This document shows positions 41,242-62,008 of a DNA stretch of 64,000 nt, piece after piece. The position numbers and the translations under genes are program-made. The notes under the pieces were generated by a model. The model ran no database searches and was not told the origin of the DNA. It was given only the letters and a program-made list of their open reading frames with translations. The first letter of the stretch is position 1; the number at the start of each line of letters is the position of its first letter. This DNA is from Sedimentitalea nanhaiensis DSM 24252 (lineage in GTDB: Bacteria; Pseudomonadota; Alphaproteobacteria; Rhodobacterales; Rhodobacteraceae): assembly GCF_000473225.1 (NCBI RefSeq), contig NZ_KI421509.1:252362-316361 (forward strand), written 5' to 3'.

Positions 41242-41331
41242 GGGGAGGTGGCAGAGTGGTCGAATGCGGCGGTCTTGAAAACCGTTGGACGTGAGAGCGT
41301 CCCCAGGGTTCGAATCCCTGTCTCCCCGCCA
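41242..41331 (+). tRNA. tRNA-Ser (anticodon TGA)
   Basis: A 90-nt class II tRNA. Acceptor GGGGAGG pairs with TCTCCCC (one G-T pair), anticodon loop CTTGAAA gives TGA, a long variable arm (GTTGGACGTGAGAGCGTCC) follows, and the T loop is TTCGAAT. Discriminator G and an encoded CCA end it at 41331. It marks the edge between conserved and accessory sequence in this window. Confidence 0.96.
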
Positions 41332-41510
41332 GCCATACCGGTCTCATTTCAACAGCGTTATCTGATCCAATATTACGCCGCAATTTCCGGGGGTTGTCGG
41401 GCCGCGCCGCGGCTTGAGGCTGTTGAACTGGCACGATCTGGCGGTAGTAATCCGGAAAGTCTCAGTGGCCGATATTTCGGGGTTCGCTATGGCGGTGGAT
41501 TGCCGGTTTA

Positions 41511-41702
41511 CAGGGAATCTACAGGGAAATCGGTTGCTTTTGATCTCGAGTCCTGTGGTTCTGGGAGTCTGCGCTCTGATGACAGTAAAGAATTCAATGG
41601 GTTGCGGGGCGTTCCCTGTTCTTGTCGGAACAGGGAATTTCGAATGTGGCAACAGGGAATTGACACGCCCTTATCAGGGAAACTGCCGACGGGAACAGGG
41701 AA
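41511..41702. repeat. Cluster of seven CAGGGAA heptamers behind tRNA-Ser
   Basis: CAGGGAA occurs at 41511, 41522, 41631, 41653, 41675 and 41696, with an inverted copy (TTCCCTG) at 41612-41618. The last four are 22, 22 and 21 bp apart, about two helical turns, and the first two are 11 bp apart, one turn. The inverted copy and its neighbour form a perfect 10-bp palindrome (41612-41621 and 41628-41637) with a 6-nt spacer. The 383-bp gap 41332-41714 has no gene. The pattern is that of a protein-binding array: integrase arm sites, iterons or an operator. Confidence 0.75.
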
Positions 41703-41714
41703 GGGCGGGATTGT

Positions 41715-42593
41715 CTATCGGAAGCGGGGAACGCCCAATTCCGGCGGGGCGCCGTCGTCGTCCTCCGCCTCGACCGGCAGGTCGGACCAGAGCAGGGTGA
41801 CGGCGTGCCCGTTGTCGGCAAGCCGGGTCTGTTCGTGCAAGTCGAAGTCTGCCTTGTCGAACCAGGCACGAGCAACGTTCGGGCCTGGTTCGGAGATACC
41901 GACACGGCCTTGTCTGATCTTGATGGAAGCAGGCGTTGCGCTTGGAATCGGGTCGCCCTTGTTCAGTGGCAAATATGGCAAACCGTTGTCCCGGATCACA
42001 TATCGCACCCGGCCTTCGTGAGAGAAGACCAGCGCCAGGGGTTCATCCCGCCGTTCGAGCATCCGGCGCAGGCAGGCTTCCAGGCTGAGATCCAGACCAT
42101 CGCGTGCCTGCAGCGCATCCTTGATATCGGGAGCATCGGACAGGTAGCGATCGAACAGGGCAGGTGGCGCCAGCAGTTCGATGGCAAAGGTATTGGCCTC
42201 GGATTCCTGCCGGCGATGCCATTGACCGGTGCGGGTTTCTCGCAGGTCGGCAACCTTGCAGGCAAAGCCCTTCGGATCCGTTGGTACGTGCCGTTCGAGC
42301 AAAAAATGCCCGAGTTCATGCGCGATGGTGAACCGGGCGCGCCGATCACCATGCTTGTTGTTGGCCAGAATGGCCCCGCAACTGCGTACCACATCTGTCA
42401 ACAGCATGCCTTCAAAACCGTCGAAGCCGCCAATCCGCACCTCGGCGATATCCAATGCCCGGGCGATCTCCATGACCGGCACGGGCCCTGGGATCATGAC
42501 CGGAGAGTTCAGCGTGCCGATCTGATCATGCACTGCGCGGGCGAGGCGTTTGGGCGCGTGGATATCCGCCAGCTCGATCCGGTCCAACTGCAT
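41715..42593 (-). CDS. ImmA/IrrE family metallo-endopeptidase
   Basis: A 292-aa cytosolic zinc protease of the ImmA/IrrE (DUF955) family. The motif is HELGHFLLE with H92, E93 and H96, and a downstream acidic ligand lies in the RRQESEANTFAIELLAP segment, the usual second half of the signature. These proteases cleave a partner repressor or regulator to switch on mobile-element or stress genes. The partner is likely the XRE protein encoded 3 bp upstream in the same operon. The C-terminal 90 residues are not recognised. Confidence 0.88.
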   Translation of the reverse strand: MQLDRIELADIHAPKRLARAVHDQIGTLNSPVMIPGPVPVMEIARALDIAEVRIGGFDGFEGMLLTDVVRSCGAILANNKHGDRRARFTIAHELGHFLLERHVPTDPKGFACKVADLRETRTGQWHRRQESEANTFAIELLAPPALFDRYLSDAPDIKDALQARDGLDLSLEACLRRMLERRDEPLALVFSHEGRVRYVIRDNGLPYLPLNKGDPIPSATPASIKIRQGRVGISEPGPNVARAWFDKADFDLHEQTRLADNGHAVTLLWSDLPVEAEDDDGAPPELGVPRFR

Positions 42594-42596
42594 CTG

Positions 42597-42926
42597 TCAG
42601 GGGTGGCCCGACCGGTTCATCTTCATGCTTTCAATCATCTGTTCGACAATGGCGCGATCACGCTCTGAGAGCTTTTCCAGACCGCGATGCATGCGCTCGA
42701 TCTGCAGATCGTCTGAGCTTGGCTCTGGCGCATCGCCTGTCAGCACGTCGATCCCAACCCTGTAATGCTCTGCCAGTTTGCGCACCAGATCGAATGATGG
42801 GTTGCGGCTGCGACCTTTCTCCAATTCCCAGACATGCGCCTTGGAGACGCCGACCTTGTCGGCCACCTGCTGCAGGGACTCACCTGTTTTCTGCCGCAGG
42901 CTGAACAGCTTCTCACCGATTTCCAT
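42597..42926 (-). CDS. XRE-family helix-turn-helix regulator
   Basis: A 109-aa repressor-like protein. The HTH_3 domain fills residues 4-62 (EKLFSLRQKTGESLQQVADK, KAHVWELEKG), followed by a charged helical tail. The ATG at 42926 follows GGGAGACC; the open frame continues upstream to 43187 but crosses the promoter region and the divergent methyltransferase start. Cotranscribed with the ImmA-like protease, the standard switch of integrative elements. A likely sigma-70 promoter lies at 42957-42986. Confidence 0.88.
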   Translation of the reverse strand: MEIGEKLFSLRQKTGESLQQVADKVGVSKAHVWELEKGRSRNPSFDLVRKLAEHYRVGIDVLTGDAPEPSSDDLQIERMHRGLEKLSERDRAIVEQMIESMKMNRSGHP

Positions 42927-42956
42927 GTTGGTCTCCCGTCTGCCTTGCCGAACGCC

Positions 42957-42986
42957 ATTATACGCCTGTAGTTGACGAAATGCCAG
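42957..42986 (-). promoter_or_regulatory. Probable promoter of the xre-immA pair
   Basis: On the minus strand a perfect -10 box TATAAT (42957-42962) has an 18-bp spacer to CTGGCA (42981-42986), a 4/6 match to the -35 consensus. The predicted transcript would start about 25 bases ahead of the ATG. Confidence 0.5.
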
Positions 42987-43062
42987 TCGTAAGATAAATC
43001 GAACGGAGAGGGCCGACGGGGCGATTCCCGCGGCGGGCCGTACCAACAAGAGGAGGCAGCAG

Positions 43063-44364
43063 ATGCCCCACGCAAAGATCACGCAGATTGCCATCGGCGA
43101 TCTGACACCCTGGGCAAACAATGCTCGGACCCATTCGAAGAAGCAGATCCGACAGATTGCCGACAGCATCGAGGCATTCGGGTTCACAAATCCGGTGCTG
43201 ATCGACGAGAAGCGCGTGATCCTGGCCGGCCATGGTCGGGTGGCGGCGGCGCGGCTGCTGGGATTGCCGGATGTTCCGTGCCTGCGGCTGGATCACATGA
43301 GCGAGGCCGAGAAGCGGGCCTATGTGCTGGCGGACAACAAGCTGGCGCTGAACGCGGGCTGGGACGAGGACCTGCTGGCGGCGGAGCTGGGCGCGCTGCT
43401 GACGGCCGATCTCGATTTCGACATCGGCGTGACCGGCTTCTCGATCCCGGAGATCGACAGCCTGCTGGAGATGGTCGAACCGGAGGAACCGGATGATCCC
43501 GATGACGAGGCGGGCGCCGAACTTGCGCCGCGGCGGGTGAATCCCGGGGACATCTGGCATTTGGGACCTCACCGTCTGGTCTGTGGCGATGCGCTGGATT
43601 CGGGCGTGATCGGGGCGTTGATGGAAGGTGAAGCGGCGCGGATGGTGTTCTCGGACCCGCCCTACAACGTGCCGATCGACGGGCATGTGGGCAATTCCGG
43701 CAAGACGCAGCATCGCGAATTCGCGATGGCCGCGGGCGAGATGAGCCGGACCGAGTTCACAAGCTTCCTTGAGTGCGCCTTTCGCAACCTGGCCGATCAC
43801 AGCCTGGACGGGTCGATCCACTTCCTCTGCATGGACTGGCGCCACATGGGCGAGATGCTGGCGGCGGGACATGCTGTCTATGACGCGCTGAAGAACCTGA
43901 TCGTCTGGGCCAAGGACAACGGCGGCATGGGGACTTTCTACCGCTCGCGCCACGAGCTGATCTTCGCCTTCAAGAAAGGCGCGGAACCGCATGTCAACAC
44001 CTTCGAACTGGGCCAGCACGGGCGCTATCGCACCAATGTCTGGCAGTATCGCGGGGTCAACACGATGCGCGCCGGGCGCATGGAGGAACTGGCGCTGCAT
44101 CCGACGGTGAAGCCGGTGCAGATGATCGCCGATGCGATCCGGGACGTGTCGGGGCGCGGGGACATCGTGCTCGACATCTTCGGCGGATCGGGCTCGACAT
44201 TGATCGCGGCGGCCAAGACCGGGCGACGGGGCTTTCTCTGCGAACTCGATCCCGTCTATTGCGACCGCATCCTCGCCCGCTGGGAGGCCTGGGCAAAGGA
44301 TGAGGCGGAGCAGCTGGTCTGCGGCTGGAACCTGTCCACTGCCGGGCTGGAGGCCGCGGAATGA
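43063..44364 (+). CDS. DNA methyltransferase with N-terminal ParB-like domain
   Basis: A 433-aa fusion. Residues 5-100 form a ParB/Srx-like domain with the GHGRVAAARLLG motif at 57-68. Residues 160-420 form an N6-adenine or N4-cytosine methyltransferase with DPPY at 198-201 and the AdoMet motif FGGSGST at 373-379. This is the beta-class order (catalytic motif before FxGxG). No restriction enzyme gene is attached, so it is an orphan modification enzyme, common in phages and integrated elements. It overlaps the DUF5681 gene by 4 bp. Confidence 0.92.
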   Translation: MPHAKITQIAIGDLTPWANNARTHSKKQIRQIADSIEAFGFTNPVLIDEKRVILAGHGRVAAARLLGLPDVPCLRLDHMSEAEKRAYVLADNKLALNAGWDEDLLAAELGALLTADLDFDIGVTGFSIPEIDSLLEMVEPEEPDDPDDEAGAELAPRRVNPGDIWHLGPHRLVCGDALDSGVIGALMEGEAARMVFSDPPYNVPIDGHVGNSGKTQHREFAMAAGEMSRTEFTSFLECAFRNLADHSLDGSIHFLCMDWRHMGEMLAAGHAVYDALKNLIVWAKDNGGMGTFYRSRHELIFAFKKGAEPHVNTFELGQHGRYRTNVWQYRGVNTMRAGRMEELALHPTVKPVQMIADAIRDVSGRGDIVLDIFGGSGSTLIAAAKTGRRGFLCELDPVYCDRILARWEAWAKDEAEQLVCGWNLSTAGLEAAE

Positions 44365-45077
44365 GCCGGGACGGAAAGAAGCTGCCGGCTGCAAAACCGG
44401 GGGCCCGGTACGAGGTCGGCTATGGCAAGCCGCCGGAGTCGTCCCGGTTCAGGCCTGGACGGTCGGGCAACCCGAAGGGTCGCCCGAAAGGCGCGAAGAA
44501 CAAGCGGCCGCGGCTCAACGAGGAACGGCTGAAGGAGATCGTCCTGGATGAGGCCTATCGCGAGATCACCGTGCGGGATGGCGATCGCAACGTGAGCGTG
44601 CCGATGGCGCAGGCCGTCATGCGCGCCCTTGCTGTCAACGCGGCCAAGGGTCAGCATCGCGCACAGCGGCTGTTCGCCGAGATGCTGTCGACGACCGAGC
44701 GCCAGAACAAGGCGCTTGCGGATGAATGGTTCAGAACCGCGGTCGAGTACAAGGTCGAATGGGAAACGGAACTGCGCCGGCGCGAAAAACTGGGCATCAC
44801 GGATTTGCCGCCGCCGTTGCCACATCCGGACCAGGTGAAGCTGGACATGAACACCGGCCTGGCAACGATCAAGGGCCCGGCGACGAAAGACCAGGTCGCG
44901 CAGCTGGAGCTGTGGCGGAGAAGGCGTGACGGGTTCTCCGAAGACCTCGCGTTCGTACGACAAGAATACGAGACGGAGACGGACGAGGGCGCCAGGACGC
45001 GTCTGGAGGATGACATCCGGCAAATCGAGCGATCGCTGGAGGCCATTGACCAACTGCTCGACCAGATCGGGTATTGA
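44361..45077 (+). CDS. DUF5681 domain-containing protein
   Basis: A 238-aa basic-then-charged protein. The N-terminal signature RFRPGRSGNPKGRPKGAKNK (residues 31-50) defines DUF5681, a domain found in phage and mobile-element proteins, sometimes next to terminase or methyltransferase genes. The rest is helical, ending with a coiled-coil-like segment (180-235). Its ATG overlaps the methyltransferase stop (ATGA). Function unknown; DNA binding through the Arg/Lys/Gly patch is plausible. Convergent with the serine recombinase. Confidence 0.8.
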   Translation: MSRDGKKLPAAKPGARYEVGYGKPPESSRFRPGRSGNPKGRPKGAKNKRPRLNEERLKEIVLDEAYREITVRDGDRNVSVPMAQAVMRALAVNAAKGQHRAQRLFAEMLSTTERQNKALADEWFRTAVEYKVEWETELRRREKLGITDLPPPLPHPDQVKLDMNTGLATIKGPATKDQVAQLELWRRRRDGFSEDLAFVRQEYETETDEGARTRLEDDIRQIERSLEAIDQLLDQIGY

Positions 45078-45111: not shown

Positions 45112-46791
45112 TCAAAATCCGAACAGGCGCTCCTGGTCGGCCCAGGCCAGCGGATGGGAGACGCTGACCAGGCGTTTGAGGGTGAGTTCGGGAGGCTGGC
45201 TGCCGTCGAGGATCGCGGCCTGGAGTCCCGGCGACAGGAAGGCGAGTCGGGTGCGGGTCCGGATGAAGGATCCGGGAACGCCTTCACGGCGGGCGATGTC
45301 GGAGAGTTGCGTGCCGGACCTCAATGCGCGGGCCCAGCCATGGGCGCGGATCAGCATGGCGCGCAGATGCGGATCGGGGTCCGGCGCGATATCGCCGGCG
45401 ATGATCCTGGCTTCGACCCCGCGGCGGCGGAGATCGAACGGGGCCGTTATGTGGGCCAGGGCCGGACACAGGTTCTTTTCCGGAACCCCGAGTGCCCGGA
45501 CCAGCGCTCCGACATCCAGCTCCAGGTCGATCTCGCCGCGCCGCAGGGTGGCGGAGGAGAGAAGGTCGGCGCAAAGCACACCGGTGTCCCTGTTCAGCCG
45601 GGCGATCAGGTCGCTCGCGGCCCGGGTCATTGTGTCAGCGCTTCCGGCATCGGGAGTGTCGAGAATCCGGTGCGACCCGGCGGCCTCTGTCAGATGTGTG
45701 GCGATGATGTTCCGGATGCTGGTCTCCAGCGCCGGGCCCGGCAGGCGCCAGGCGGCGGGATCGGCGCCGCCTGCGATCAGCCGGTTGGAGACGTAGTAGC
45801 GCAGGCGTCGCCCTTTCCGGGTGGTGTGGGTCGGGGTCAGCCGGTCGCCGGTCTCGTCGTGCAGCTTTCCGGTGAGCCAGGCGCCGGGGTCGGTGGAGCG
45901 GGGCAATGCCCCGGGCTTGCCTTGCGATCTGGATCGGTTGGCGGCGACCTGCATTCTCTCCTGCACCCTGTTCCAGAGATCCTGGTCGATGATGGCGTCG
46001 TGCTGGCCCGGCCAGACCTTCTCCTTGTGGCGGATCTTGCCGAGATAAACCGGGTTGCGCAGCAGGTAGTAGATCTGGCCGCGGGACAGCGGGCCGCCGC
46101 CCGAGACCTTGCCGCTGGCGCGGATCCGGCGTTTTGACCGCAGTGCTTCGTCGGCGGCGCGTTCGGCGACCCGGCGCAGGCAGCCCTGTTCTGCATAGAG
46201 GGCGAAGAGACGCCGGACGGTTGCGGCTTCACCTTGATTGACCACCAGAGTCCGCGCCTTCGTGTCGGGATCGCGGTCATAGCCCAGCGGCAGGTTGCCG
46301 CCCATCCAGAGGCCCTTCTTCTTGGAGGCGGCGATCTTGTCGCGGATGCGCTCGGCGGTGACCTCGCGCTCGAACTGGGCGAAGGACAAGAGCACGTTCA
46401 GCGTCAGCCGGCCCATCGAGGAGGACGTGTTGAAGGCCTGGGTGACCGAGACGAAGGAGCAGTTCGCCGCCTCCAGCCGGTCGACCAGCCGGGCGAAATC
46501 GGCCAGCGACCGGGTCAGCCGGTCGATCTTGTAGACCACCACCATGTCGATGCGCCCGGCCTCGATCTCGGCGAGCAGGCGTTGCAGGGCCGGGCGCTCC
46601 AGGGTGCCGCCGGAGACCCCGCCATCATCAAAGCGGGCGGGCAGCAGCTTCCAGCCCTCGTGGCGCTGGCTGGCGACATAGGCAGCACAGGCCTCGTGCT
46701 GGGCGTCCAGCGAGTTGAACTCCTGGTCGAGCCCCTCGTCCGAGGATTTGCGGGTGTAGATGGCGCAGCGGATCTTGGGGCGCTGGCTCAT
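45112..46791 (-). CDS. Large serine recombinase
   Basis: A 559-aa site-specific recombinase. The resolvase catalytic domain covers residues 7-150, with the nucleophile S16 in YTRKS, SLDAQHEAC, and YKIDRLTRSLADFARLV. A recombinase domain and a long C-terminal DNA-binding part follow. The zinc-ribbon cysteines usual in phage-type large serine integrases are not evident. Its ATG overlaps the DUF2924 stop by 4 bp. It is complete and could act on element ends in this region. Confidence 0.92.
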   Translation of the reverse strand: MSQRPKIRCAIYTRKSSDEGLDQEFNSLDAQHEACAAYVASQRHEGWKLLPARFDDGGVSGGTLERPALQRLLAEIEAGRIDMVVVYKIDRLTRSLADFARLVDRLEAANCSFVSVTQAFNTSSSMGRLTLNVLLSFAQFEREVTAERIRDKIAASKKKGLWMGGNLPLGYDRDPDTKARTLVVNQGEAATVRRLFALYAEQGCLRRVAERAADEALRSKRRIRASGKVSGGGPLSRGQIYYLLRNPVYLGKIRHKEKVWPGQHDAIIDQDLWNRVQERMQVAANRSRSQGKPGALPRSTDPGAWLTGKLHDETGDRLTPTHTTRKGRRLRYYVSNRLIAGGADPAAWRLPGPALETSIRNIIATHLTEAAGSHRILDTPDAGSADTMTRAASDLIARLNRDTGVLCADLLSSATLRRGEIDLELDVGALVRALGVPEKNLCPALAHITAPFDLRRRGVEARIIAGDIAPDPDPHLRAMLIRAHGWARALRSGTQLSDIARREGVPGSFIRTRTRLAFLSPGLQAAILDGSQPPELTLKRLVSVSHPLAWADQERLFGF

Positions 46792-47207
46792 GAACCTGGC
46801 TTTCCGGTCAGCCCGAAGAACCGCGGCCCGGACCAGTGGGCGCCGGTGATGGCGCGGGCGATGGCCGAGAGCGAGCGGTGGGTCTGGCCTTTCCAGAGAT
46901 AACCGTCTGCGGTGACATCGACGACATGGGTGACCCCGTTCCATTCGCGGAGCAGCCGGCCGCCGGGCTTGAGGGCGGGGCTTTTGGCGCGCGGGGTTTG
47001 ATCGGTTGTCTTCGCAAGCGCGGTCTTCACCTGCCGGGGCAGCCCGCCGTGGCGGCGGGTCTGCAATTCGAAGGCGATGAAGCGGCGGAGGAAGGGCTGG
47101 CTCAGCATCTTCGGGGCGGGTCCGGCGAAGATATCATGCCAGAGGTCCAGCAGATCCGGCCGTTCCATCGCCTCCAGATCCCTTATCTCACCAGGTGCCG
47201 CCATCAT
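46788..47207 (-). CDS. DUF2924 domain-containing protein
   Basis: A 139-aa protein fitting DUF2924: an N-terminal helical part with LWHDIFAGPAPKMLSQPFLRR, then a small beta domain with GGRLLREWNGVTHVVDVT and the YLWKGQTHRSLSAIARAITG segment. DUF2924 genes are nearly always found directly upstream of a large serine recombinase, as here, and are thought to be accessory DNA-binding factors. Four-base overlaps link it to DUF3489 and to the recombinase, so the three are one translational unit. Confidence 0.88.
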   Translation of the reverse strand: MMAAPGEIRDLEAMERPDLLDLWHDIFAGPAPKMLSQPFLRRFIAFELQTRRHGGLPRQVKTALAKTTDQTPRAKSPALKPGGRLLREWNGVTHVVDVTADGYLWKGQTHRSLSAIARAITGAHWSGPRFFGLTGKPGS

Positions 47208-47431
47208 TCATCCCCCGCGCCTGACGGCATATGGTAAATTGCTGGCGCACCTGCCTTCCCGGCCAGACGGCGCTCGATGGGCAGGCCTTTCTTGCGCATT
47301 GTGCTGAGCGCTGAACGAGCCGAATGCGGCTGCCAGCCGGTTGCCGTGCAGATGGCTTGAAGGCTGGCGCCGGAGGGGCGCCGAAGCATCGCCTGCACCT
47401 TGGCTGCCTTGGTCTCTTCGCGTTTTGTCAT
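47204..47431 (-). CDS. DUF3489 domain-containing protein
   Basis: A 75-aa basic protein of the DUF3489 family, with a winged-helix-like core (QAICTATGWQPHSARSALS). The ATG at 47431 follows GAGGAAAG, so the longer open frame to 47617 is not used. First gene of the DUF3489-DUF2924-recombinase module. Likely a small DNA-binding regulator or directionality factor; this role is inferred from context only. Confidence 0.85.
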   Translation of the reverse strand: MTKREETKAAKVQAMLRRPSGASLQAICTATGWQPHSARSALSTMRKKGLPIERRLAGKAGAPAIYHMPSGAGDE

Positions 47432-47554
47432 GAATCTTTCCTCGGATTTCGAGGCTGGCATGTTGCCGCGCCCCGGTACCGGGGAGAGCCCGAACGCGTC
47501 GGGCCTGGGTCCAGTGATGCGTGGTTCGGGCAAGTAGTCCAGTTGTTTCCATCG

Positions 47555-47657
47555 GCGGGTCCGGCGCAGTGGAGCGTGACGAGGCTCTCGCTGAACCACG
47601 ATGCGGTTCAGGCTCATAACCTGAAGGTCGTAGGTTCAAATCCTACTCCCGCAACCA
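47555..47657 (+). other. Initiator tRNA-fMet 3'-half remnant, possible integration scar
   Basis: From 47608 to 47657 the sequence is that of an initiator-type tRNA-Met(CAT): anticodon stem TCAGG, loop CTCATAA, CCTGA; T arm GTAGG TTCAAAT CCTAC; TCCCGCA, A, CCA. The 5' part is not a normal tRNA half. GCGGG at 47555-47559 can still pair with CCCGC at 47648-47652, but about 30 extra bases separate a D-like arm from the anticodon stem. A competing hairpin (CTGAACC 47591-47597, GGTTCAG 47605-47611) is also possible. The best reading is an att-site copy of a tRNA 3' end. The rest of the 482-bp gap (47432-47913) has no gene. Confidence 0.6.
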
Positions 47658-47913
47658 AAATATTACAGTATTATCAATACGCTAGAAGCCACCTCCGGGT
47701 GGCCGCGCGCGTTCCCGAAACACCACTGGAAGCACTGTGGAAGCAAACGGACGCGGCTTGTGACTGTTGCGGACACGCAACACGCAAGCTAGATCAGCAC
47801 AACAAAAACCAGTGCCAACGCAAACGGCCCATAACGGTCATTGCGACCAGTTCTTCGAAGGTCTGACTTTCAATTTGCTTCCGTGTTTAGAATCCTCACA
47901 AACAATCTCGACC

Positions 47914-49869
47914 TTAAACCTCGTCGAGGTTTGGCCACTCCTCAGGAACCAACGCTGGGGGTTTGGTCCACGGTTCTTCGACCAATGCGTCCTGAAACCA
48001 TTGATCACGGAGGTTCGCGTGCTCGGTGACGATCAGTTGAAAGCCGGGCACGTCATTCTGAGTATATTTTAACAGCAGCTCGAACAAGCGACGAACCGAG
48101 TTTAGATCCGCATCAGCCTCTGTTTTTTGGAAAGAGCCGTCGGCCTCCTTGTAGACTTTCTCAGACGGAAAGTAGACTTGGGTCGGCTGATCAATCAACA
48201 GGAAGCGTGGGATTGGGCGGTTGTTTTGCGCAGCGAATAGGTGCAGAGCGAGTAATGCAGAAAGGTGATAGGCTAAATGGTTTTCGCCGCCTCCTGTGCG
48301 ACTCATAGGGACTGGACGCTCAGGCCGATCGAAGATGATCGTCAACTGTGGTAGGTTGAGCCGCGCGGGGAAGTCTTGGAATTCGGCCTCGAATTTCCGG
48401 ATGAACCGCGTGACTTGCGCAGAGATGTTGTTGAGAATTGAGGCTAGGCGTTCATCGCTATCGTCGGTGCCGATTTCCTCCTCGAGTTGCGTCACCCTCT
48501 TGATGAGACGGCGATTCTCCGATTCAAGTCTGGCAAGTTCTTCGTTTGGAGGGAGCCTTTCCAAGAAAAGGCTGATACGGCCTACCACGCGCGCGGCAGC
48601 ATTGTTGCGACTGCCCATTTGGGCAATGACCTCATTGGCTGCGATCGCAGCGGACAGCTCCGTTTCTTTCTGTCTGACGTCGGTTGCGATGCCGTCCGCC
48701 TGAGCAATCAATTCAGCCAAGTAGGCGTCGAGCTTGGGGCGCTGACCGGTGGCGACGCGCAACTCCTTATCTAGCGATTCAAGCTCGTTTAGCAGGACGG
48801 CAGCAAGCGGGGAGTCGAGCGCTAGGTTCCGTTCGCTGAACGGCCATTGCCATTCGCCGCTGTCGGGATTCTTCGGCAGTGCCTTGATCGAAGTGAGACG
48901 ATCTATTTGTTCAGCGGCCTCGTTTTCGTAGCCGCCCGCCCTCTTGGCGAACTGTCGCGCCGAATCAATTCTTGCCTGAGTGTCTCGCCGATCCTGGCGC
49001 AGTTGAGCCAGCTCTTCTTCCAACAGGGAAATCCGGCTAGCGTCGTCGTCAGGCACCTTTTCAGGTTTCCAAGACAATACAGAGCTCAATGCTGCAATGA
49101 CTGCTTCTGCATTTTGATTTTCATCGGCGCTTCCGATCACCCCAACCGCCGTCGCTTCCGAGTGCAGACCGATTGCCTGCTCGTGCGACGTATCGACTGC
49201 ATTGCGCGCCTGCTCTAGCTTCTTGTTGCTGATTCTCAGATCCCGCTGCGCAATCCGTAGCTTCGACTCCCATTCGAAGCGGTCGTGAGAGGAGACGCCA
49301 AGCAGGATTGGCAGGGTATCGCGTATTGCCTGCGGCTGGAATTGTTCGTTCTGGCGGTAGAAAAGTTGGTCCTTGTTTGCGACCAGTCCTTGCTTTTGAA
49401 ACAGGTAGTAAAACGTGTGCTTGACGTTGGCGTCGTAGCTGGCGCGGCTGTGTTCAAGCGCAACTTCGGTCCGATTTTCTGGAATTCCGAGCAGGCGTGA
49501 CAGGAGTTCGACGATGCTATCGTCGTCAGTGTTGGCTAGCAGATCTTCGAACGCGGGTATTGGCAACTGATTGCCCCTTCGCAGCATTGCAGTGCTGCAA
49601 CTCGCACCACCGTGAGGCGGTGTTGGCTTAGCGACCAGAACCTGCTCTTTTTCAAATTGGTAGATCACGGCGAACCATGCCACCTTGTCACGGATTATTC
49701 CTTCCGGGACGTTGAACGAAGATCGTCCCATACAATATTCGATAATCTCTGAGAGTGCGGACTTGCCAGTAGAAGAGCGACCGGTAATGACGTTAAGCCC
49801 GTCAACCTTGAAGTACAGGTCGCGGCGCTGGCCGCCATGGCTGTAAATGTGGATGGACCTGATCTTCAT
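47914..49869 (-). CDS. ABC-3C system ATPase, DUF3732 (SMC/RecF-like)
   Basis: A 651-aa ABC-type ATPase of the DUF3732 family, the motor of ABC-three-component conflict systems. Walker A GRSSTGKS is at residues 30-37. Long coiled-coil arms lie between about 200 and 470. A signature-like segment (SRTGGGENHLAYHLS) precedes the Walker B region PRFLLIDQPTQVYFP. This is the split-head plan of SMC/Rad50 proteins, so it probably senses or binds nucleic acid. Its ATG overlaps the middle-component stop by 4 bp. Last gene of the operon. Defence role is inferred from the family. Confidence 0.88.
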   Translation of the reverse strand: MKIRSIHIYSHGGQRRDLYFKVDGLNVITGRSSTGKSALSEIIEYCMGRSSFNVPEGIIRDKVAWFAVIYQFEKEQVLVAKPTPPHGGASCSTAMLRRGNQLPIPAFEDLLANTDDDSIVELLSRLLGIPENRTEVALEHSRASYDANVKHTFYYLFQKQGLVANKDQLFYRQNEQFQPQAIRDTLPILLGVSSHDRFEWESKLRIAQRDLRISNKKLEQARNAVDTSHEQAIGLHSEATAVGVIGSADENQNAEAVIAALSSVLSWKPEKVPDDDASRISLLEEELAQLRQDRRDTQARIDSARQFAKRAGGYENEAAEQIDRLTSIKALPKNPDSGEWQWPFSERNLALDSPLAAVLLNELESLDKELRVATGQRPKLDAYLAELIAQADGIATDVRQKETELSAAIAANEVIAQMGSRNNAAARVVGRISLFLERLPPNEELARLESENRRLIKRVTQLEEEIGTDDSDERLASILNNISAQVTRFIRKFEAEFQDFPARLNLPQLTIIFDRPERPVPMSRTGGGENHLAYHLSALLALHLFAAQNNRPIPRFLLIDQPTQVYFPSEKVYKEADGSFQKTEADADLNSVRRLFELLLKYTQNDVPGFQLIVTEHANLRDQWFQDALVEEPWTKPPALVPEEWPNLDEV

Positions 49870-50354
49870 GGGCGAATTCCAAATGTTGCATAAATGGTTG
49901 CCCGGTCAGCAATGCGTGCAAATTCTCTACCAACTATCCGCGCGACTTTTTGGCAATCAACAGTCTCGGCCGTTCCACTGACGGTCTTGCGCACCTTCTT
50001 GGGCACGGTTTGGATGCGGCCGTTATCTGCGACATTGATGCAGCCCCTTTCCATAAGCAGACCAAATCCCTCGAAGGCATAGGGTAGCATCTCCGAAACC
50101 CGATCGCCGAAGCCCACCATCAGTTGCTGGTTCTTCTCCGTCGTCTTAAGCAGGTAGCTGCGCGGACTACTGACAATTACCTCGCGCGAGTCTTTGTGCA
50201 AGCAGAGCGGCAGGACGAGTAGTGACAGTGAAAAGGGCATGCCTCGTGCATCTTCGTCCTCATATCCGTTCAACGAACGGAACAAGACCAAGCCGCAAAA
50301 TGCCGGGTTGAATAGATTACGAATCTCGAACGGGCGTTGGTCCCATCGTTTCAC
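49866..50354 (-). CDS. ABC-3C system middle component
   Basis: A 162-aa protein matching the small middle component of ABC-three-component systems: RPFEIRNLFNPAFCGLVLFRSL at the N-terminus, a central MPFSLSLLVLPLCLH segment, and helical C-terminal sequence. The GTG at 50354 overlaps the upstream TGA (GTGA) with GGGGTGG upstream. An in-frame start at 50405 would overlap the neighbour by 55 bp and adds no family sequence, so the GTG is preferred. It is thought to link the ATPase and the effector; no catalytic motif is seen. Confidence 0.82.
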   Translation of the reverse strand: MKRWDQRPFEIRNLFNPAFCGLVLFRSLNGYEDEDARGMPFSLSLLVLPLCLHKDSREVIVSSPRSYLLKTTEKNQQLMVGFGDRVSEMLPYAFEGFGLLMERGCINVADNGRIQTVPKKVRKTVSGTAETVDCQKVARIVGREFARIADRATIYATFGIRP

Positions 50355-51574
50355 GAGGCCACCCCTAACACTTTGTATACGCGTTCGATAAATCGTGGAT
50401 GCCAATAAACTCTAGGTTCAGGCGTGGTATCCGCGAGAATGTGAAGGCTGCCTCGGACGACATAGGGTTCCGTCACACGCGCGCGAATGCGAAGGGACTC
50501 GATCTTGCCGGTCTCAAATTCTGCCCAGTTGTAGAGAGTGGCTCCGGCTTCGCGCAGCGCGTCCTCGGCGCTGTCGTCCGAGAGTTTCTCGAAAACAACG
50601 TCCCTGTAGCGGCTCCATTCCTCTGCGAGACGATCCTCGTATTCCTCTACCTCTCCCGATACGAGCAGGTTCTCGCGCGCCCAAGCCGACCGCTGCTCGA
50701 ACGCTCTGTAGTAATCTAGGATCGCACTCCTGATACGGTTGGAAGAGATGCCTATCTCGTGCATTTGCTTGACGAAAAGGCGCGGATCGGCATCGGTGTC
50801 AATCTCACTGGCGGGCACCTTTCCGCGGAAGGTGATTGGCAGATTGTCTGTTTTGTATTCCTCGGTGATGTTGGAAAGCTTATCCGACACTTCGTGGCCG
50901 AAAATCCCTTCCGGCCTGGCGCCAGTCAACTGCTTGATCACAGCATCGGTCCACCAACCTTCCAGTCGTTCTAAGACGAACTGGCGGTGTTCGCGCCTTA
51001 TGCTTCGCATGTGCTTTTCCCGGATGATTGCCGGGATGTCACTGATGCGCGGGTTCCCATCGAGGATCAGGATGCGCTCGAGAAAGTCTTGCTTCGCTGA
51101 ATCGCTTAATTCGTTAAACGCAGCTGCGATCGGTGTGATGAGTTTTGACTTTGACCTAGAGAGCGTGGCGGTGGCCAGTTCGGCAAGTGTTGCCTCATGG
51201 CTGGAAGAGGAGGCCAGTTCCGGGAGGAAGCGAGTAAGAAATGAATCGGTCGACACGGTGCCGGTGGTAAAAAGGAAGAACTGCATATTTGACGCAGCAA
51301 GGCCATCCCGCTTGTATCGCACCAGCCAAATGTTGACTGATTTCCAGAAATCTGTCGACAGGTCTGTCAGTTTATCGCCAATCGCCTTGTGCTTTAGCGA
51401 AGCCAAGGACTTACCGCCTTCGGTGTCAATGAAATCGAGATCGTCGTCTTTTTCAATGAAGACTGCCGCATCTTCTGGAAGCTGAAGGAGGCGAAGCAAC
51501 GCAAGACGACCTTGGTAAATATATCCAAGGCCCTGCTCGCCTGCTGAGAACTTATCAGTTTCTTTTTCGACCAT
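50351..51574 (-). CDS. ABC-3C system effector with nuclease-like N-terminus
   Basis: A 407-aa protein with two parts. Residues 15-65 resemble a Cap4/DUF4297-type restriction-endonuclease fold: GYIYQ at 17-21, E41, the acidic D43-D45 run, and K61 in SLKHK at the place of the usual QxK. The Gln is replaced by Ser, so activity needs testing. Residues 240-407 fit the ABC-3C C-terminal domain (SNRIRSAILDYYRAFEQRSAWARE and later YWHPRFIERVYKVLG). First gene of the operon; the ATG follows GGGAG. Cleavage of DNA on activation by the ATPase is the likely but unproven mode. Confidence 0.82.
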   Translation of the reverse strand: MVEKETDKFSAGEQGLGYIYQGRLALLRLLQLPEDAAVFIEKDDDLDFIDTEGGKSLASLKHKAIGDKLTDLSTDFWKSVNIWLVRYKRDGLAASNMQFFLFTTGTVSTDSFLTRFLPELASSSSHEATLAELATATLSRSKSKLITPIAAAFNELSDSAKQDFLERILILDGNPRISDIPAIIREKHMRSIRREHRQFVLERLEGWWTDAVIKQLTGARPEGIFGHEVSDKLSNITEEYKTDNLPITFRGKVPASEIDTDADPRLFVKQMHEIGISSNRIRSAILDYYRAFEQRSAWARENLLVSGEVEEYEDRLAEEWSRYRDVVFEKLSDDSAEDALREAGATLYNWAEFETGKIESLRIRARVTEPYVVRGSLHILADTTPEPRVYWHPRFIERVYKVLGVAS

Positions 51575-52007: not shown

Positions 52008-52847
52008 TCATGCGGCCTGCTTTTGCAACGTCATTTTGTCTGCGAACTCGTTCGGCGTGAGATTTGCCAGCGACGAATGCGGCCGGTTTCGGTTGTAATC
52101 CTCCTTCCATTTTTTGATCTCTGATCTGGCGTCTGCGAGGGACGAGAACAGCGTCTCGTTCAAGCACTCATCGCGGAAACTGCCGTTGAAACTCTCGATG
52201 AAAGCGTTCTGTGTTGGCTTTCCTGGAGCGATGTAATGCCAGTCGATCTTTGTTTTCTGGCACCATTTCAAAACCGCTGAACTGGTCATTTCGGTCCCGT
52301 TGTCGCTGACAATTGTCTTCGGCATTCCGCGCACCTGAATGATAGCGTCCAATTCACGCGTCAGCCGCGCGCCCGACAGCGATGTATCCGGAACAAGAGC
52401 CAAACATTCACGGCTAAAATCATCTACCATCGCCCGAACGCGGAACCTGCGTCCATCTGTGAACGCGTCCGAAACGAAATCCAGGCTCCAACGCTCATTG
52501 ATGGTCTCTGGCACGATCATCGGGCGGCGCGTGCCCAGGGCGCGTTTCCGGCCACCACGCTTACGCACCTGGAGCCCTTCTTCGCGATACAAACGCCGCA
52601 GCTTCTTCTGGTTCATGTAGATGCCTTGACGCTCCAGCATGATGTGTATGCGCCTGTAACCGAAGCGCCGACGTTCAGCAGCCACATCCTTCATGGCTTT
52701 GCGCAGGTCAGCATCATCTGGTCGGATGCTGCGATACCGCACACTCGACCGATCCACGTCCAACACATCGCACGCCCGCCGCTGGCTCACCCCGTGCTGA
52801 TCACAAAGATGAACCACCGCTTTCCGCTTTGCCGCGGGCGTCACCAT
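52008..52847 (-). CDS. IS3-family transposase OrfB (DDE domain)
   Basis: A 279-aa catalytic part of the IS3 transposase with an rve integrase core. The DDE residues lie in [19 protein letters not shown] and [12 protein letters not shown]. An HTH_21 segment precedes it ([18 protein letters not shown]). Its first codons overlap the end of orfA at an A7 run on the minus strand (52847-52853), the usual -1 slippage site, so the active enzyme is the OrfAB fusion. Confidence 0.93.
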
Positions 52848-61218: not shown

Positions 61219-62008
61219 GACGGGCAGGGCGGTTTCGTAGCCTTACCGGATGACCAATCCTAACCCATTTCGCTACTTCAAGACGAGCCCAGAGATCATT
61301 CGCCTAGCGGTGATGTTGTACATTCGGTTCCCGTTGTCGCTCAGGAATGTGGAAGATCTGCTGCATGAACGAGGTGTCGATGTCAGCCACGAGACAGTCC
61401 GGTATTGGTGGCATCGCTTCGGTCCTGTGTTCGCCGCTGAGATCAGAAAGCGCAGGATCGCGGGGATGCGATCCAGCCGTTGGCGTTGGCACCTCGACGA
61501 GATGTTTGCGAAGATCAATGGCCAGACGCACTACCTTTGGCGGGCTGTGGATCACGAAGGCGAAGTGCTTGAAAGCTATGTCACGAAGACCCGAGACAAG
61601 AAGGCCGCATTGAAATTCCTAAAGAAAGCAATGCGAAAGCATGGCAGAGCTGAGGAGATTGTTACTGACCAGCTCCGATCCTACGGAGCCGCTTTGAAAC
61701 AGATCGGCGCGGGTGCTCGGCAGGAAACCGGCCGCTGGTTGAACAATAGGGCTGAGAACTCGCACTTACCTTTCCGACGAAGAGAACGAGCCATGCTTCG
61801 TTTCAGGCGCATGCGAAGTCTGCAGAAATTCGCCTCCGTGCACGCCTCTGTCTCAAACCACTTCAACCACGAGCGCAGCCTTTCATCTCGCAAACTTTTC
61901 AAGTTGAACCGAACCGCCGCCCTTGTCGAATGGCGTCAGCTTTGTTCCGGATAGGTTCACGCGCTTGGCGACAAGCTGAGACTAGTTCGAATTCGTCTGA
62001 CAGCACCC
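61192..62008 (+). mobile_element. IS6-family insertion sequence (about 0.8 kb)
   Basis: The left end GGGTTCTGTCAGA (61192-61204) matches the right end TCTGACAGCACCC (61996-62008) as an inverted repeat with one mismatch. The 817-bp length is normal for IS6. The 8 bp outside each end (acgtgagg left, cgcgggac right) differ, so no target duplication exists. Both neighbouring genes, lysR and the serine recombinase, are cut by it. That points to a deletion or fusion between two IS copies rather than a simple insertion. Confidence 0.75.
61250..61954 (+). CDS. IS6-family transposase
   Basis: A 234-aa DDE transposase. The N-terminal HTH region (SLRNVEDLLHERGVDVSHET) is followed by the catalytic pieces WHLDEMFAKING, VTDQLRSYGAAL and the final NRAENSHLPFRRRERAM. 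The length is normal for the family. Full-length and possibly active. It overlaps the end of the truncated recombinase frame on the opposite strand. Confidence 0.93.
   Translation: MTNPNPFRYFKTSPEIIRLAVMLYIRFPLSLRNVEDLLHERGVDVSHETVRYWWHRFGPVFAAEIRKRRIAGMRSSRWRWHLDEMFAKINGQTHYLWRAVDHEGEVLESYVTKTRDKKAALKFLKKAMRKHGRAEEIVTDQLRSYGAALKQIGAGARQETGRWLNNRAENSHLPFRRRERAMLRFRRMRSLQKFASVHASVSNHFNHERSLSSRKLFKLNRTAALVEWRQLCSG

Follow-up and report, generated by a model that had tools for sequence, protein, structure and literature searches.

The CAGGGAA array behind tRNA-Ser

The array of CAGGGAA heptamers behind tRNA-Ser(TGA) in the 64,000-nt stretch of DNA analysed here (the window) is probably the distal half of an att-side module of an integrative element whose large serine recombinase (LSR) targets tRNA 3′ ends, and it would form the accessory (arm) region of attP/attL. 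Judged by sequence comparison, this module of ~370 bp recurs across Alphaproteobacteria in mobile elements that encode the LSR and a DUF2924 protein and, usually, a DUF3489 protein. The initial annotation had named an arm-site cluster and an uncharacterised repeat family among its readings; both gain support, the former as the att-side module of LSR elements and the latter through its recurrence in Rhodobacterales. The features of the window are as follows (offsets with a plus sign are counted from the tRNA end).

41242–41331, + strand: tRNA-Ser(TGA), the attachment gene; crossover placed by inference at or near its 3′ end (CCGCCA)
41332–41702, + strand: whole conserved att-side module, ~370 bp (layout and alignment comparison)
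41341–41345, + strand: GTCTC box (+9), putative outer contact of an LSR half-site; in 31/47 modules
41416–41420, − strand: GAGAC box position (+84), degenerate in the window (GAGGC); at 83–85 in 44/47 modules
41459–41463, + strand: GTCTC box (+127), 43 bp beyond the position of GAGAC (layout comparison)
41500–41506, − strand: cluster 1 inverted-box position (+168), degenerate in the window (TTGCCGG, two mismatches)
41511–41528, + strand: cluster 1, CAGGGAA at 41511 and 41522 (+179, +190)
41592–41604, + strand: imperfect IHF-like site ATTCAATGGGTTG, one mismatch to WATCARNNNNTTR (IHF consensus)
41612–41618, − strand: inverted CAGGGAA box preceding cluster 2
41631–41702, + strand: cluster 2, CAGGGAA at 41631, 41653, 41675 and 41696
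41715–42593, − strand: Peptidase_M78 (ImmA/IrrE-like), 3′ end towards the module (Pfam)
42597–43187, − strand: HTH_31/HTH_3 regulator (Pfam); ORF, true start probably further in
43063–44364, + strand: N6_N4 DNA methylase (Pfam)
44361–45077, + strand: DUF5681 protein (Pfam)
45112–46944, − strand: large serine recombinase (Resolvase + Recombinase), presumed cognate integrase; ORF, start probably ~46794
45124–45372, − strand: additional helical domain at the LSR C terminus (residues 475–557 of 45112–46794), weakly ParB-HTH-like
46788–47207, − strand: DUF2924 protein (Pfam)
47204–47431, − strand: DUF3489 protein (Pfam), start inferred; HTH_23-like below cut-off
47608–47657, + strand: tRNA-fMet 3′ half, probable right end of the 6.3-kb unit

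The array is real and not a product of chance. The seven exact heptamers previously claimed within 192 bp were recovered at 41511, 41522, 41631, 41653, 41675 and 41696 on the + strand and at 41612 on the − strand; the last four + strand boxes are 22, 22 and 21 bp apart and the first two 11 bp apart, as described, and the reported palindrome is a perfect inverted repeat with 10-bp arms (41612–41621 and 41628–41637) and a 6-bp loop. The heptamer per se is not over-represented in the window (12 copies against 8.2 expected, with at least 12 in 14 of 100 shuffles); its clustering is. Neither seven boxes within 192 bp nor a phased triple arose in any of 300 first-order Markov windows. A search of the window's own genome (4.95 Mb, 7 contigs) for boxes with 12–17 bp gaps returned 3 matches, all inside the 41511–41702 array, and the reversed control pattern returned 0. 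The tRNA was the sole match in an Rfam scan of the window from 40 to 49 kb. The interval originally assigned to the feature (41511–41702) starts too late, the conserved unit beginning at the tRNA 3′ end and taking in the GTCTC boxes at 41341 and 41459.

Layout and conservation of the module

The layout was compared in 47 modules, after dropping the boxless L138 and six near-duplicates. Counted from the tRNA end, (i) GTCTC lies at +9 (31/47), GAGAC at +83–85 (44/47), and a second GTCTC at +126–128 (46/47), the spacing from GAGAC to this second GTCTC being 43 in 36 modules, 42 in 6, and 44 in 2; (ii) cluster 1 consists of TTCCCTG at ~+168 and CAGGGAA at ~+179 and ~+190, with steps of 11 in 19/20; and (iii) an inverted box at ~+271 precedes cluster 2, which consists of CAGGGAA at ~+288, ~+309, ~+331 and ~+352, with steps of 21 or 22 in 49/66, 13 of the remaining 17 being about two or three times that.

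As the alignment shows, the boxes are conserved and the intervening DNA is not. In the gapped alignment of 42 modules of 350–400 bp, column identity was 0.83 in the boxes and 0.89 in GTCTC versus 0.43 in the rest (best of 10000 column permutations, 0.62). An ungapped comparison from +120 to +199 gave little contrast (0.48 vs 0.41), which we think is due to shifts of 1–2 bp.

Between the two box clusters, an IHF-like site is found at a fixed place (+248 to +250). The motif WATCARNNNNTTR, the IHF consensus, is exact there in 9/47 modules and present with at most one mismatch in 23/47 (these 9 included), compared with shuffle means of 0.09 (maximum 1) and 1.5 (maximum 6), respectively. The spacer from cluster 1 to the inverted box, measurable in 38 of 49 modules (the 47 plus the window and L073), is 80–82 bp in 33 and 90–91 bp in 4, with one outlier; the longer class includes the window and L073. 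By these measurements, spacer lengths differ by roughly one helical turn, which supports the helical phasing proposed in the initial annotation and carries it beyond the window. The two-cluster layout was present in only 37 of the 108 IMG/VR array stretches with enough upstream DNA.

Association of the module with a serine recombinase and tRNA genes

The cluster had been suspected to be an orphan; it looked so because the window LSR lies 3.4 kb from the array. That reading did not survive: the LSR is encoded at 45112–46944, and at least 3 exact boxes stand beside the LSR 3′ end in 66 of the 74 LSR loci with both flanks. These loci belong to a sample of 80 gathered by LSR protein alone, which avoids circularity; they are the best 80 of at least 321 relatives and are weighted to Rhodobacterales near the window's LSR. 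Boxes were counted up to 450 bp from the LSR 3′ end in the 78 loci with at least 360 bp beyond the LSR, and in 1413 controls from the same loci. At least 3 exact boxes were found in 70/78 loci and 0/1413 controls, and at least 2 in 74/78; four loci had none nearby (L073, L078, L128 and L138), and the L073 module lies 3.4 kb off. DUF2924 was present in all 74 loci with room for it and DUF3489 was detected in 57 of them. Across this sample, module, LSR and DUF2924 are thereby seen to travel together.

A tRNA 3′ end occurs within 800 bp of the LSR end in 54/80 loci (again the best 80 of at least 321 relatives), at a distance of 369–381 bp in 40 and of 194–444 bp in the remaining ones; eight of the 26 loci lacking a tRNA have <700 bp of sequence on that side. 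The 54 tRNAs comprise 51 Ser (27 TGA, 13 GGA, 7 GCT and 4 CGA) and 3 Arg. In class 1, where the array adjoins the LSR gene, the module is shown by these distances to keep a near-fixed position relative to the tRNA 3′ end.

Genome searches were made for the array itself. The triple box pattern was present in 12/198 family, 21/390 order and 23/385 class genomes, counts that still include some simple tandem repeats; the reversed control pattern was present in 6/385 class genomes and in none of the family (198) or order (390) sets. The 8-bp tandem arrays in G189 and the simple repeats in G322, G536 (contig 589) and G574 were set aside as matches to the pattern that have nothing to do with the array. 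Of the first 14 array loci (without G189), which have a common box order, 6 have a tRNA-Ser with one of three anticodons at an equal upstream distance, and no tRNA was found in the 3-kb stretches of the other 8. At 29 tRNA-Ser loci of other genomes, which have mixed gene neighbourhoods and of which 4 have <500 bp beyond the tRNA, the clusters were present in whole or in part in 4 and absent from 25, as expected for an element-borne site; this comparison with sites free of the island had been proposed at the outset.

In the same class genomes, the LSR family (threshold E ≤ 1e-40, with three candidates scored in each genome) was found in 71/385, namely in 16/23 array genomes and 55/362 others (odds ratio 12.8, p = 3e-8, the p-value being a guide since genomes are non-independent); 7/23 array genomes had no LSR at this threshold. 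Apart from the window's locus, an array lies within 1.5 kb in only 2/29 class-wide LSR loci, so that only class 1 shows the array next to the LSR gene. In 18/29 of these loci, a tRNA 3′ end (Ser, Gln, Met, Lys or Ala) faces the LSR 3′ end.

The crossover and a second class of elements

G106 contains two modules 43.5 kb apart that are 96% identical over 3.1 kb, and the shared sequence begins in the final bases of tRNA-Ser at its 3′ end, which places the crossover there. For the window, we therefore infer a crossover at or close to the tRNA-Ser(TGA) 3′ end. A true empty tRNA-Ser(TGA) site was not found in the window's own genus, in a second genus or among the 29 family tRNA-Ser loci; module-free tRNA-Ser sites exist, several of them containing other elements. 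The attB and attP assignments consequently derive from junctions. An apparent native flank was rejected because it proved to be a recurrent sequence behind several tRNA-Ser genes. A recurrent sequence other than the module, starting CTTRCCC..CGAAAGCG..TCTCCCGATC, stands directly after tRNA-Ser genes in L263, L282, L293 and L319; it is apparently the mark of another family of elements with the same tRNA-Ser target.

Class-wide, at least one cluster-1 box stands at its usual place in 25/28 array loci, and mostly no LSR lies downstream within the stretch. In L372, L374 and L378, the LSR is on the opposite side and reads towards the module. In L379, the LSR 3′ end is followed by a tRNA-Gln, and GAGAC and GTCTC stand 43 bp apart between the two; in L378, such a pair separates the first LSR from the module, and the second LSR is followed by a tRNA-Gln without the pair. 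When copies at different locations are compared, homology of the module sets in at −164 to −175 from the array in five pairs (L029/L030, L368/L369, L378/L379, L379/L380 and L378/L380); the limit of −163 in L374/L352 was left unused, being set by the L352 contig end. The nearest LSR match on the contig of the array lies downstream, at 8 kb in G724, 16 kb in G885, 25 kb in G733, 29 kb in G629, 34 kb in G721 and 53 kb in G687, in the module's orientation in all six genomes. G867 has an LSR just upstream of the array, and G000, G585 and G813 belong to class 1.

We read these arrangements as a second class of elements, in which module and LSR occupy opposite ends and would meet at attP on the circle. 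Since the module of this class would lie at the far end from the LSR and yet at the crossover, it appears to follow the crossover/att site, not the LSR gene, in both classes. Terminal repeats, as in circular forms, were absent from all 35 loci tested among the 37 two-cluster viral loci (24 whole contigs).

The recombinase and the candidate binders

The window LSR has Resolvase and Recombinase domains (Pfam). Its AlphaFold model (mean pLDDT 82; pTM 0.35, with an uncertain domain arrangement) aligns to solved LSRs from residue 4 up to residues 433–446; the fold matches 9dxh, 9y66 and 9iu2 have Z scores of 17.1–17.2 over 373–385 residues, with RMSDs of 12.7–16.2 Å over several domains, and the catalytic domain alone matches 3bvp with Z 16.0 (132 aligned residues, RMSD 3.6 Å). 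Beyond the aligned part, residues 475–557 form an additional helical domain of high local confidence that is conserved in 37 members. Searched singly against Pfam, this domain matched HTH_ParB in 7/37 (best E 0.001), HTH_23 in 6 and SopB HTH in 3; the window's own copy had no Pfam match at E ≤ 1. No PDB sequence match was found for the domain, which the whole-model fold search barely probes.

This weakly ParB-HTH-like domain is our leading candidate for the CAGGGAA binder. L138, which has a tRNA and no boxes, has the most divergent copy of the domain among the 37 members (32% identical to that of the window), a suggestive pairing. LSR relatives that match only before the domain lack an array in 20/20 regions, within the stretch; these do not separate the hypotheses, because an array within 1.5 kb is equally missing from 27/29 class-wide LSR loci, whose matches run to the C-terminal end in nearly every case. 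The recognition-helix subtype is associated with an exact box at +179 (17/36 vs 1/13, p = 0.017), an association confounded by kinship, and not significantly with the box at +190 (27/36 vs 13/13, p = 0.09).

A possible mechanism and its alternatives

If the array is an arm region, the two CAGGGAA clusters would be bound on one DNA face and brought together by an IHF bend, and the nucleoprotein complex beside the crossover would help the LSR to choose or time integration and excision. The GAGAC/GTCTC boxes 43 bp apart would be the outer contacts of LSR dimers. The CAGGGAA binder would be the additional HTH-like domain at the C terminus of the LSR itself, with DUF3489 or DUF2924 as second choices. 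An alternative that we consider unlikely, though deserving of some weight, is that a co-encoded directionality factor (DUF3489 or DUF2924), not the LSR, binds the arm sites and controls the LSR. It fits the company that DUF2924 (74/74) and DUF3489 (57/74) keep with the LSR and the resemblance of DUF3489 to HTH_23 (E 0.006, below the Pfam cut-off). Against it, DUF3489 went undetected in 17/74 loci, 14 of which have at least 3 boxes, although tblastn may miss so small a protein; the DUF2924 model had no confident PDB match in the fold search, which says little either way.

Other readings detach the array from the recombinase. An iteron-like origin had been suggested at the start; an iteron-type replication origin used by the excised circle, beside att by chance, is in our view improbable. 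Iteron origins also have direct repeats and IHF sites, and the 21–22 bp direct repeats and the IHF-like site of the module resemble them. The iteron reading leaves the fixed offsets of the module to the tRNA end unexplained; in both classes the position of the module seems tied to the crossover and not to a gene, and no replication initiator was present among 9 Pfam-scanned window proteins (larger ORFs, 41.7–50.4 kb). The clustering of palindromic boxes and the presence of an HTH regulator in the window would suit an operator array of a repressor or of adjacent genes, yet the class-1 gene beside the array ends there (LSR or M78 stop codon) and does not start, and 75/80 LSR loci have no M78 match in the examined DNA while most of them have the array; we regard an operator as very improbable. 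Least credible is a functionless passenger shared through element kinship alone: the elements are homologous and the ungapped partial comparison shows little contrast (0.48 vs 0.41), but the gapped box columns stand out (0.83 vs 0.43 elsewhere) and the spacing is constrained.

Comparison with known integration systems

Small serine recombinases that depend on extra sites and bending proteins are familiar from Tn3-family res and the Hin/Gin enhancer; the present system differs from them in enzyme size and architecture, in integration at tRNA genes and in its separate heptamer array. Among large serine integrases, the window LSR resembles those of phiC31, Bxb1 and A118/LI in its Resolvase and Recombinase domains and in its fold match, and the 43-bp GAGAC–GTCTC spacing would fit a dimer site of ~50 bp. 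What sets it apart from these systems is a conserved layout that extends over ~370 bp, an additional domain at the C terminus and the use of tRNA genes as targets. The serine recombinase of phage WO is a relative (32% identity over 99% of the window LSR), with an att boundary annotated directly after the recombinase gene; on that side, no repeated box was found in a 370-bp stretch from just before the LSR gene end onward.

According to passages of PMC3783163 and PMC4111918, serine integrases use sites of 40–50 bp and need no auxiliary DNA or accessory proteins for integration, and a passage of PMC4383910 describes tRNA genes as common targets of tyrosine integrases and the serine integrase family as not known to target them. 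Neither statement appears to fit the LSR family described here in Alphaproteobacteria. More recent collections of tRNA sites (TIGER, mentioned in PMC12884075) may contain such cases. Among titles and abstract openings, none was found that reports arm sites or a role of IHF in a large serine integrase system.

The lambda-type attP, given in a passage of PMC4111918 as ~240 bp with arm-type sites and IHF, is resembled, by sequence, in the complex att region, in repeated short arm boxes on one side and in an IHF-like site between clusters; like lambda integrase, the window integrase may have a second DNA-binding domain. Unlike lambda, the enzyme is a serine recombinase, and the stated lack of an adjoining tyrosine integrase was borne out, with no such domain among 18 Pfam-scanned window proteins from 41.7 to 63.6 kb (9 proteins at 41.7–50.4 kb and 9 larger ORFs at 50.3–63.6 kb). 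We tentatively raise the idea, to which we give somewhat less than even chances, that a family of serine integrases independently reached the lambda strategy of a two-handed enzyme, an IHF bend and a direction controlled by complex topology, not by the core site. The catalytic part and the zinc domain would then hold the crossover at tRNA 3′ ends, and the added ParB-like HTH would hold phased arm sites ~170–350 bp away, with IHF bending the DNA between. Should the arms be functional, the family would be a case convergent with lambda and a controllable class of genome-insertion enzymes. The family also explains the recurring repeat beside tRNA-Ser islands in marine Rhodobacterales.

The element in the window and its right end

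Behind the module, the window encodes M78, the HTH regulator, the DNA methylase and DUF5681, followed on the minus strand by the LSR, DUF2924 and DUF3489. Aliiruegeria lutimaris (L073) has the same gene order at tRNA-Ser(GGA), where array and LSR are again 3.4 kb apart, and a locus from the viral collection (L239) has M78, HTH, methylase, DUF5681 and LSR in the order and orientation of the window. Islands integrated at a tRNA gene (the Islander signature) carry the intact tRNA at one end and a displaced piece of that tRNA at the other; the window has tRNA-Ser on the left and a tRNA-fMet 3′ half on the right, the search for a tRNA-Ser fragment having covered ARAGORN and the genus comparisons. 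No shared right flank was found within the compared DNA, so the right end rests on the tRNA-fMet junction and is probably the 3′ half at 47608–47657.

This half is part of a 149-bp copy (99%) of the rRNA operon end inside the island (47608–47756), consisting of the tRNA-fMet 3′ half and its downstream flank. Further nearby copies of the rRNA operon end occur in the same genome at C4:318534-318619 and C4:326588-326744, and similar tRNA-fMet 3′ halves are present in L032, L033, L073, L090 and L106. Upstream of DUF3489 (47471–47505), the palindrome CCCCGGTACCGGGG lies beside a GCCCGA/TCGGGC hairpin, and a nearly identical pair precedes DUF3489 in L073; the palindrome is possibly the operator of the LSR operon. 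To the right of the element (47914–51574) are genes of an ABC-three-component system (DUF3732, MC3 and CTD7), which are candidate defence cargo. The accessory region also contains two transposase-like genes, at 52008–52847 and 61250–61954 (rve integrase core; IS240-type DDE).
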